A stretch of 64,000 bases of DNA from Litchfieldia sinesaloumensis (GTDB lineage: Bacteria; Bacillota; Bacilli; Bacillales; Bacillaceae_L): the NCBI RefSeq assembly GCF_900156865.1, contig NZ_LT732529.1, forward strand, positions 761,056-825,055, in the 5' to 3' direction. Positions 30,749 to 33,253 of the stretch are shown here, piece by piece. The notes below the pieces were generated by a model that saw only the letters and a program-made list of their open reading frames with translations, searched no databases and was not told the origin of the DNA. The position numbers were made by a program, and so were the translations under genes. Each line of letters opens with the position of its first letter. The first letter of the stretch is position 1.

Positions 30749-30985
30749 TTATTGTAAAAAATTATGTTTTGACAGTAACATATTATATTGATTGGTAAGT
30801 TCGATAAATGTTGATTCATCTTGGTCAATAAGTGATTGATCAATCTGTTTTAATAATTGTTGTTTTCTAAAGGAGGCCAGTGATTGGACGAGAACCATTT
30901 CGGCTACCTTTTCATACATTTCATCATCTGGCGTTTGAGAAACTACGACTACCTCATTCTTTTGCTCTTTGTTCAAATGGTCCAT
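30749..30985 (-). CDS. small IDEAL-domain protein
   Basis: A 78-residue soluble protein. The C-terminal part (LLKQIDQSLIDQDESTFIEL followed by TNQY) fits the IDEAL domain, a short helical module found in Bacillus proteins such as ComK-related and YpiB-type proteins, where it mediates protein contacts. The ATG follows AAAGGAGTGATTAAGTA. Convergent with kinA. Partner and role unknown. Confidence 0.75.
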   Translation of the reverse strand: MDHLNKEQKNEVVVVSQTPDDEMYEKVAEMVLVQSLASFRKQQLLKQIDQSLIDQDESTFIELTNQYNMLLSKHNFLQ

Positions 30986-31280
30986 TACTTAATCACTCCT
31001 TTGTTTTTTTCGCTTATTTAAGGATTCAACTATTGAATCTTATAAGCGCCATCAAAACCATGCTATTTTAAAAAAATATTGCATCGTCTAGATGTCTTTC
31101 TATTATGAAGGAAAATCAGGTGAAAGTAAAGTGTTTTTTTTTAGAAAATTTAGATATATCAGAACTTGTTTGTATAAAATTTCCGTAATATAAGTGTAGG
31201 ATAATAAGAAAAATTGGGTTACTTTCCTAATCCATTTCATAGTATGAAATGAGAACTTCTACAAAAGGGAGGTACCTGTT
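30986..31280 (+). other. intergenic region with a palindrome before the lectin gene
   Basis: No gene seen. TTTCATAGTATGAAA (31235-31249) is a near-perfect palindrome about 30 bp before the lectin start and includes CATAGTAT, similar to the CATA...T -10 of mother-cell sigma factors (sigma-E/sigma-K). A matching -35 was not convincing. Confidence 0.3.
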
Positions 31281-32549
31281 TTGAATCAACCATATAATGG
31301 ATATCAAATCGACCCATATTTTCGAACGGCTTCGCATGGTTATTATCCATATCATTCCGTAAATGGCTTTCAACCTGCTTATTATATAAATACTCAACCT
31401 CAAGTAAATCAGGTAAGACAAACGCAAGAATTTCAAAATGTATGGAAAGAAGTGCGTAAAAATCTCCAACCTCATTATAATCAATTAGCAGAATATAATA
31501 TTGATCGGAGATTATCGCAGTTTATTGCGATGCAGCTTGTCATGTTCACACTTATGACTCAGAATCAAGTTTCTGGTTCGTTGGACCAACAAGTAAATCA
31601 AATATATCGTGCTTTTCGTAATCAAGCCAATTGGTTCTATGCTGTTTTGGCTCCGTACCGAATTCCAGATCGTATACTCGAACAAATATTTAAAGCCATA
31701 ATACGATTAACATATGAAAATATTGGTTATTCGCCTGAAAAAAATTGGAGCGAATGGGAAGACCTTGGAGGTTATTTAACATCAGGTCCTTCTGTTGCTA
31801 TCCCAGAAAGAAATCAGTTAGATGTGTATGTACGTGGAAGAAACCGTGTCCTTTACCACCGGCTGTGGGATGGTTCAAGATGGACTGAGTGGGAGAATCT
31901 TGGAGGCACGCTTACATCCTCTCCAGCTGCCGTGTCTTGGGCACCTGGTAGGGTAGATGTCTTTGCTCGAGGTGAAAGAAACCAATTGATCCATAAATAT
32001 TGGAATGGTTCTACCTGGAGTGAGTGGGAGGACTTAGGTGGAGTATTAACCTCATCTCCTGCAGTTGCCTCATGGTCGGAGAATCGTCTTGATGTATTTG
32101 GCAGGGGTACAGACCGCCATCTCTACCATATATATTGGGATGGGGCAGGATGGAGCGAATGGGAAGACCTTGGAGGTGTTCTTACTTCTGCCCCAGGTAC
32201 TGTGTCATGGGGACCAAATCGTATCGATGTCTTTGCACGGGGAGAAAATAGAGGCCTATATCATAAATATTGGAATGGCTCTACATGGAGTGGATGGGAG
32301 GATTTAGGTGGTCAATTAACATCTAGCCCAGGTGCTTCTTCGAGACATCCAAATCAACTTGATGTTTTTGTTAAAGGAACCAATGATCATTTGTATCTAA
32401 AAAGTTGGGATGGAAGTCGTTGGAGTGAATGGGAGGACCTAGGCGGAACATTAACCTCTGAACCAACCTCTGCTTCATGGAGCCGTAATCGAATTGATGT
32501 TTTTGCAAGAGGAGAAAACAACCAATTAATTCATAAATGGAAAGCATGA
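31281..32549 (+). CDS. PLL-like beta-propeller lectin-type protein with N-terminal helical domain
   Basis: A 422-residue protein without signal peptide or membrane segment. Residues 1-150: Tyr/Pro/Asn-rich start and a helical domain. From about residue 155 to the end there are six tandem repeats of 45 residues (135 bp), each with WSEWEDLGGxLTSxP, then SWxxxRxDVFARGxxxxLxHKYW. This is the repeat of PLL-type (Photorhabdus lectin) and related propellers that bind fucose or other sugars. Start TTG 31281 lies behind GGGAGGTACCTGTT. The DUF1906 gene follows after 25 bp, so the pair is probably one operon. Possible spore-surface or released protein; not shown by the sequence. Confidence 0.8.
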   Translation: MNQPYNGYQIDPYFRTASHGYYPYHSVNGFQPAYYINTQPQVNQVRQTQEFQNVWKEVRKNLQPHYNQLAEYNIDRRLSQFIAMQLVMFTLMTQNQVSGSLDQQVNQIYRAFRNQANWFYAVLAPYRIPDRILEQIFKAIIRLTYENIGYSPEKNWSEWEDLGGYLTSGPSVAIPERNQLDVYVRGRNRVLYHRLWDGSRWTEWENLGGTLTSSPAAVSWAPGRVDVFARGERNQLIHKYWNGSTWSEWEDLGGVLTSSPAVASWSENRLDVFGRGTDRHLYHIYWDGAGWSEWEDLGGVLTSAPGTVSWGPNRIDVFARGENRGLYHKYWNGSTWSGWEDLGGQLTSSPGASSRHPNQLDVFVKGTNDHLYLKSWDGSRWSEWEDLGGTLTSEPTSASWSRNRIDVFARGENNQLIHKWKA

Positions 32550-32574
32550 AGCGCAACATCTAAGGGGGGTATAT

Positions 32575-33222
32575 ATGCCTAGATATGTTTGGGGAGTAGA
32601 TTCATCAGTCGCTGTTGATGATGAACTATATACATGTGTAAAAAGTAAATTTGGAAATCCTAAATTTTGGGGAAGATACTTAAGTGAGGAGCCTAATGTT
32701 TCAACAGGATTAACAAAGGGCGAAATTTCGTTCTTACGGAATCGAGGAATAAAGGTATTGCCTATCTACCCTATCTTCTCAGAGGCTCGTGGTTATGAAA
32801 AAGGGCAACTTGCTGCACGAAATGCGGTTTTTAATGCAAGAAGGTTGGGGCTACCTATAAATGCTGCGCTTTTTGCAAATGTTGAACGCTTTGGTGCTGT
32901 TGATGAGGCGTGGATTCGCGGTTGGGCAGAATCGATTTATCCAAGTGGATATCGTCCTGGAATCTATAATAATCCGGTAGTAGGTGATTTTGCTGGAGCT
33001 TATTGTGAGGCGGTTCGTAAAAATAATCAGGTTGCACTTCAAACGATTTTGTGGAGTGCTGAACCTGAAACTGGTGTGACTAGGGAACGGAAGGTACCTA
33101 CTTTCAAGCCAGCTTCTCCAAAATGTAAATCAAATGTGTGGGTTTGGCAGTATGGAAGAGATGCCCAAGCATGTCCTGTTCATACAAATCTTGCAGATTC
33201 GCGTGTTTTGAATTATCTCTAA
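32575..33222 (+). CDS. DUF1906 (Rv2525c-like, glycoside-hydrolase-like) protein
   Basis: A 215-residue protein consisting of one DUF1906 domain: VWGVDSSVAVDDELYTCVK, FWGRYLSEEP, IKVLPIYPIF, GLPINAALFANVE, YRPGIYNNPV and the C-terminal VWVWQYG. The fold is a TIM barrel related to glycoside hydrolase family 25-like enzymes; activity is not established. Acidic residues at strand ends (Asp of GVDSS, Glu of ANVE) keep the hydrolase-like layout. No signal peptide is present, as for the lectin before it. The ATG follows AAGGGGGGTATAT. Confidence 0.82.
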   Translation: MPRYVWGVDSSVAVDDELYTCVKSKFGNPKFWGRYLSEEPNVSTGLTKGEISFLRNRGIKVLPIYPIFSEARGYEKGQLAARNAVFNARRLGLPINAALFANVERFGAVDEAWIRGWAESIYPSGYRPGIYNNPVVGDFAGAYCEAVRKNNQVALQTILWSAEPETGVTRERKVPTFKPASPKCKSNVWVWQYGRDAQACPVHTNLADSRVLNYL

Positions 33223-33224
33223 TA

Positions 33225-33253
33225 AAAACCAGGTGAAATCCACCTGGTTTTTT
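33225..33253. terminator. terminator between the DUF1906 gene and ykyB
   Basis: AAAACCAGGTG (33225-33235) pairs with CACCTGGTTTT (33241-33251), with further T's. A-rich upstream, so usable from both sides. Confidence 0.88.

Follow-up and report, generated by a model that had tools for sequence, protein, structure and literature searches.

The PLL lectins of Photorhabdus (PLL, PLL2–5, and PHL) belong to the DUF346 repeat family, and solved complexes of this family contain L-rhamnose (6rgr), 3-O-methyl-glucose (6rg2), and an O-methylated disaccharide (6rgg). A six-bladed closed propeller is found in the fucose lectins AAL, AOL, and FleA/AFL. Among spore proteins, the Tyr-rich proteins of the coat and exosporium form a class in Bacillus. 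The leaderless type of DUF1906 protein is represented by the solved structure PDB 1SFS, presumably from B. stearothermophilus, which was deposited as 'Hypothetical protein'.

In the window analyzed here, a stretch of 64,000 nucleotides from Litchfieldia sinesaloumensis, the gene for a lectin-like protein with DUF346 repeats is followed by the gene for a leaderless DUF1906 protein. The best explanation of this locus, and one that we consider probable, is a two-gene unit expressed in the mother cell, wherein the lectin would be built into the spore layers with the DUF1906 protein alongside. The original prediction for this DNA also drew on sporulation control and spore deposition, and it overlooked the Tyr-rich tail of the lectin, its N-terminal helical domain, and the prediction of six blades for its propeller.

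Organization of the Locus

The features of the locus are collected in Table 1. Both open reading frames lie where the original prediction had placed them, separated by 25 bases from the lectin stop to the DUF1906 start. The TTG start of the lectin is supported by eight homologues from the genus, all of which have ATG at the aligned position and an upstream GGAGG-type ribosome-binding site. A hairpin with a T run, missing from the output of a simple terminator scan, follows the DUF1906 gene and suggests that both genes are transcribed as a single unit.

Table 1. Features of the lectin–DUF1906 locus, in window positions.
Feature	Position	Strand	Details or basis
Promoter-like element GGGTTACTTTC ... 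TCATAGTATGA, putative mother-cell sigma −35/−10	31216..31247	+	Two blocks at fixed distance, 9/9 genus members
Palindrome CATTTCATA-G-TATGAAATG, nine-base arms	31233..31251	.	Overlaps −10 candidate
Ribosome-binding site AAGGGAGGT of lectin gene	31265..31273	+	Sequence
Lectin-like protein, open reading frame	31281..32549	+	422 aa, TTG start
Tyr/Gln/Asn/Pro-rich disordered tail, residues 1–41	31281..31403	+	Prediction, composition
Conserved helical domain, residues 42–150	31404..31730	+	AF2 block, pLDDT 88–96 over residues 51–150
Six 45-residue PLL/DUF346 repeats, predicted six-bladed propeller, residues 156–422	31746..32546	+	Pfam, PLL2 match, AlphaFold
Leaderless DUF1906 (Rv2525c-like, 1SFS-type), open reading frame	32575..33222	+	215 aa
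Hairpin with T run, probable transcription terminator	33224..33252	+	Fold −16.7 kcal/mol, z −5.2

A sensor kinase with three PAS domains, HisKA, and HATPase is encoded upstream of the lectin, with ykyB nearby; we take a kinA–ykyB neighborhood to occur in B. subtilis as well. It had been suggested that the lectin lies directly next to kinA. A kinase gene is indeed found upstream and kinA is a plausible identity for it, but an IDEAL-domain open reading frame (30749–30985, minus strand) intervenes between this gene and the lectin. The identification as kinA is no longer treated as settled, as no kinase model reaches its cut-off among the best 25 NCBIfam matches listed.

The Propeller Domain

The original prediction described six 45-residue repeats of PLL type covering most of the lectin. 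The repeats are confirmed by W-motifs starting at residues 156, 201, 246, 291, 336, and 381, a spacing of exactly 45, and by PF03984 (DUF346), which matches six stretches of the protein (E = 1.1e-32). They account for 267 of the 422 residues, and the remainder is a separate N-terminal part. DUF346 is the only family above its Pfam cut-off in this protein. The closest relative by sequence is the seven-bladed PLL2 (E = 9.2e-89), and FleA is found by phmmer at an E of about 0.008.

The AlphaFold model of the propeller has six blades, as judged by its strands, with pLDDT mostly above 90. In VIA, the AF2 model matches six-bladed fucose lectins with Z of 30–32 and rmsd of 2.0–2.1 Å over 257–260 residues (top match: Z 31.9, 2.0 Å, 260 aligned residues), while PLL is absent from the best 50 matches listed; Foldseek places the model at rmsd 4.2–4.6 from the PLLs. 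Consequently, the propeller is predicted to be six-bladed rather than seven-bladed. The lectin thus has a mixed set of likenesses. It shares its repeat family with the PLLs, to which it is 34–42% identical in structure alignments, but differs from them in having six repeats instead of seven, a shorter loop before the next W-motif, and the additional Tyr-rich tail, helical domain, and sporulation-type promoter. With AAL, AOL, and FleA/AFL it shares the predicted six-bladed closed propeller, whereas its sequence is only 15–20% identical to theirs and no fungal-lectin family is among its Pfam matches.

In the hydrophobic (H) sites of PLL3, the bound sugar is contacted by two stacking Trp side chains, as stated in PMC12203525. 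When these positions are mapped onto the lectin by alignment, the second Trp (equivalent to W265 in PLL3) is kept in all six repeats, and the first (equivalent to W251) is absent from all six, being replaced by Tyr in four and Ile in two. It is plausible that the propeller binds sugars, since the second H-site Trp is retained throughout even though the first has been exchanged.

The N-Terminal Tail and Helical Domain

The lectin has eight Tyr in its first 45 residues, the maximum among the 47 open reading frames of the window, for which the median is one. This start, the lack of a leader, and a mother-cell-type promoter make the lectin similar to the Tyr-rich coat and exosporium proteins of Bacillus, a likeness of general features and not of compared sequences. 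Not every fused protein has such a start; by eye, one fused lectin (L060) lacks it.

The helical domain matched no Pfam family, and profile or member-wise searches of PDB and Pfam with it returned weak, scattered matches and nothing more. Foldseek with the model found nothing below E = 0.001. The best match in VIA (Z 7.4, rmsd 9.5) is not convincing for a helical bundle; the fold is therefore given no name, and no claim is made that it is new. All 17 genomes of the GTDB family encode the domain; across the order it is present in 48 of 397 genomes and 18 of 135 genera. In 13 of these 48 genomes the open frame that contains it spans just 131–197 aa, too short for a propeller, and the four such frames that were read all have Tyr among their first residues. 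Stand-alone copies of 120–168 aa with Tyr-rich starts (L088–L091) are candidate spore proteins in their own right, and if the spore-layer reading is true such copies would mark further candidates.

Absence of an Export Signal

Neither the lectin nor the DUF1906 protein has a hydrophobic N-terminal stretch, as measured by 19-residue hydropathy over the first 70 residues. The best values are −0.51 for the lectin and 0.66 for the DUF1906 protein, compared with 2.31 for an N-terminally hydrophobic DUF1906 paralogue of the same genome, in agreement with the original view that both proteins lack a signal peptide.

The Promoter-Like Element

The DNA upstream of the lectin has diverged among the nine genus members save for GGG[CT]TACTTTC and TCATAG[TA]ATGA, which stand at a fixed distance, plus a part further upstream. 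The window element is the single match in its genome at up to three mismatches, and 100 shuffled versions of the window yielded no match. The candidate −10 is CATAGTAT. The letters CATANNNT(A) are those of a mother-cell sigma −10, and CATACANT and CATANNNTA are sigma-E / sigma-K consensus letters.

Enrichment of these letters was assessed in 35 of the 48 N-domain genes matched across the order, by first-order Markov resampling over 500 rounds. CATANNNT occurs 30–100 nt upstream of 30 of the 35 genes (resampled mean 4.1, maximum 10), and CATANNNTA upstream of 18 (resampled 1.3). When one gene is counted per genus, CATANNNT is present in 13.4 of 15, compared with a mean of 1.95 and a maximum of 7 in 2000 rounds. 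Among the named loci, CATANNNT lies 25–110 nt upstream of 18 of the 20 lectin genes, which overlap in several species with the 35-gene set, and of 58 of the 334 other genes there. The five genes without CATANNNT at 30–100 nt are L005, L019, L057, L059, and L088. In L005 the element has been displaced: compared with close relatives, nearly 190 bases are inserted downstream of the promoter element and ahead of the ribosome-binding site, which leaves CATA at −229. A separate feature of the lectin 5' leader is an inverted repeat of the CTTTATTCAG / CTGAATAAAG kind in the close relatives L008, L009, and L011, imperfect in the last.

The −35 region is less clear. The gene for SpoIVA is under sigma-E control, and in the same genome it is preceded by GTCATATT and CATACAAA, compared with GGTTACTT before the lectin. 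PMC517825 gives the optimal spacing between elements of stated lengths, which is 12 ± 1 in sigma-E promoters and 15 ± 1 in those of sigma-K. The lectin −35 candidate GGTTACTT has about sigma-E-like spacing and is not close to the spoIVA GTCATATT, while the window genus has AC 15 nt upstream of CATA, which is sigma-K-like; neither −35 is closely matched. The pattern G..[CT]TA-N16-CATANNNT, chosen after the alignment had been seen, is found in five of 15 genera (resampled mean 0.13). AC located 15–17 nt before CATANNNT is likewise found in five of 15, but this is no enrichment, as resampling gives a mean of 1.6 and a maximum of 5.

Taken as a promoter class, the conserved −10 letters support control of the lectin by a mother-cell sigma factor, sigma-E or sigma-K. 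The proposal of sporulation control thus stands for the lectin, whose mother-cell-type element is conserved in many genera, while it is weak for the DUF1906 gene. Among DUF1906 genes with an upstream gap of more than 60 bp, CATANNNT precedes 21 of 70, compared with 58 of 334 controls, a weak signal. This count draws on the 79 usable loci of 80 and retains start codons set too far downstream (e.g., L103, L109, L114, L127, L157, and L159). Bare CATA is found upstream of 59 of the 70 (135 of 334 controls), largely as a CATATA[CT]AT element that fits either consensus poorly.

The DUF1906 Partner

The second gene was predicted to encode a single DUF1906 domain, and this is borne out by a PF08924 match of 46.6 bits (cut-off 27.2). 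All 215 residues match PDB 1SFS (E = 1.5e-96). According to PMC12020853, Bacillus amyloliquefaciens has DUF1906 proteins, taken here without regard to type, both in its pellicle and in its culture fluid. The leaderless protein was compared in a set of 81 sequences, consisting of the window copy and 80 named loci, and differs from a group of ten anchored or extended paralogues, of which seven have a hydrophobic N-terminal segment (by eye) and three a long extension; paralogues of the same bacterial family are 36–41% identical over the DUF1906 domain. The second DUF1906 protein of the window genome (L038:1165-2157; G000:C3 near 1718653) has 330 aa, an N-terminal hydrophobic segment, a Glu/Asn-rich linker, and an intact acidic site.

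Proposed Function and Alternatives

From the computed gene anatomy, families, fold prediction, promoter conservation, and changed acidic residues, we infer a compartment, location, ligand, and function as follows. The sigma-E or sigma-K type promoter would switch both genes on in the mother cell during sporulation. Since it is made without a secretion signal, the lectin could take the route of coat proteins, from the cytoplasm of the mother cell to the spore surface. The Tyr-rich tail and helical domain may then attach it to the coat or exosporium, leaving the PLL-like propeller to bind sugars between its blades, as suggested by homology; these could be the spore's own surface glycans or sugars of the surroundings. 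The DUF1906 protein would accompany the lectin, acting as a GH25-like barrel that binds glycans or is weakly active, not as a full hydrolase. Sporulation control combined with the lack of an export signal makes deposition in a spore layer the best reading for the lectin, which is probably a lectin-like protein of that layer. The titles and abstract openings returned by a literature search contained no expression or spore proteome evidence on this lectin/DUF1906 family.

The CATA-type palindrome noted in the original prediction does exist upstream of the lectin, and its nine-base arms are perfect in the window. It could be the operator of a dimeric regulator, with the genes responding to a vegetative signal unrelated to sporulation. 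The core dyad TCATA-G-TATGA is found in eight of the nine genus members, consistent with such a site. In the ninth (L006), however, the dyad is broken (CATAGAATG) and CATANNNT is kept, so the palindrome is better explained as belonging to the −10 than as an operator. Most other genera have CATANNNTA or CATACANT without the window-type dyad, and TATAAT is not enriched upstream of lectins (7/20 compared with 102/334 controls). That the strict element has one copy in the window genome is hardly informative, in either direction, about a looser operator. As the main reading of the palindrome the operator was rejected on the loss of the dyad, and we consider it quite unlikely. An unlikely, though somewhat better, alternative is that the proteins are cytosolic, or set free when cells lyse, and that their targets are environmental or host glycans outside the cell, as with the PLLs of Photorhabdus. 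The PLLs resemble the lectin in lacking recognized signal peptides, and yet PLL2 and PLL3 are found in the extracellular fraction (PMC12203525). The promoter class and the Tyr-rich tail of the lectin point instead to spore assembly, and the two readings would overlap if the proteins were freed when the mother cell lyses after sporulation.

The partner could also be an active GH25-like peptidoglycan hydrolase that aids mother-cell lysis, cortex remodeling, or germination, a role that we regard as possible but doubtful. Its domain, PF08924, is common to Rv2525c, which is named glycoside-hydrolase-like, and the leaderless clade conserves Asp9 (78/81), Glu104 (78/81), and Asp196 (79/81). We take the GH25-like acidic site to consist of an Asp on strand 1, a D-x-E motif, and a late Asp, and map it onto DUF1906 on this assumption. 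The pattern is incomplete in the window protein, which has Asp9 and Glu104 but is altered at Asn102 and His203. Asn occupies position 102 in 76 of the 81 leaderless sequences, window included, while residue 203 is His in the window copy only, with Asp in 76 sequences and Asn in four; the window copy also has Asn133, where 74 of the 81 have Asp. L022, a relative within the genus, carries Lys104 and Asn203. In contrast, all ten anchored or extended paralogues have A-D-I-E and IDTN with both acidic residues intact, and it is this difference that makes the word hydrolase doubtful. In G014, moreover, the DUF1906 gene is broken and the lectin is intact. The leaderless clade appears to have moved away from the catalytic pattern, the window copy further than the rest, and the earlier description as a hydrolase-like enzyme is weakened; the partner is probably a non-classical or inactive GH25-like barrel.

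If the spore-layer reading of the lectin is right, a conserved spore-layer protein would have a folded part of a recognizably glycan-binding kind, and the same reading would give a lead on 1SFS, solved but deposited as 'hypothetical'. One could then test what keeps the protein and sugar layers of Bacillus-type spores together, or how spores adhere to surfaces. A tentative and rather improbable extension is that the lectin represents a family of spore-surface lectins that has not yet been described, with an N-domain lacking known relatives. In this extension, the N-domain and Tyr-rich tail would dock on the coat while the propeller bound rhamnose-type or O-methylated spore sugars, gluing the protein and sugar layers together. 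The rhamnose and O-methyl complexes of the PLLs, together with the Bacillus exosporium tetrasaccharide, which is described as three rhamnoses and one O-methylated sugar (PMC6222408), serve as ground for this extension alone.

Association and Distribution

The lectin and DUF1906 genes are side by side in all nine genus members. Of the 20 stretches examined, 16 hold a fused lectin, and in nine of these a DUF1906 gene is present as well, in one case broken. Some lectin genomes carry DUF1906 elsewhere, for example about 78 kb away in G276. The two genes are a frequent neighborhood and not an obligate pair, because a lectin lies within 6 kb of the leaderless DUF1906 gene in only 20 of the 80 named loci, some of which are cut by contig ends. 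The view of the genes as a pair is weakened to this extent.

SpoIVA is found in 382 of the 397 genomes of the order, the window genome included, and in all 48 genomes with the N-domain and all 123 with a DUF1906 match (paralogues included). Among the 15 genomes without SpoIVA, eight of which belong to one family, there is none with the N-domain (48/397) or a DUF1906 match (123/397). The hand-computed chance of this co-occurrence is about 0.14 for the N-domain and 0.004 for DUF1906 if genomes are independent; it carries little weight because nearly all genomes have SpoIVA and genomes are non-independent. In a phylum-wide search, the leaderless DUF1906 type was found in 3 of 368 genomes, a number too small for a similar comparison with SpoIVA.

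Several features of the neighborhoods were also observed. The broken DUF1906 gene (G014:C1:3626011-3626414; L079) has an internal stop codon, and the intact lectin lies about 2–3 kb away. An IDEAL-domain gene is near the lectin in nine of the 16 fused-lectin stretches (L076, L078–L080, L083–L086, and L095), and there is none near the lectin of L077, which is of the same bacterial family. In L076, L077, L079–L083, and L086, the gene of a membrane sensor kinase, presumably KinB-like from its N-terminus, adjoins or is near the lectin; it lies between the lectin and the DUF1906 gene in seven of these eight, and thus in seven of the nine stretches with both genes. The window instead has its three-PAS sensor kinase upstream of the lectin.
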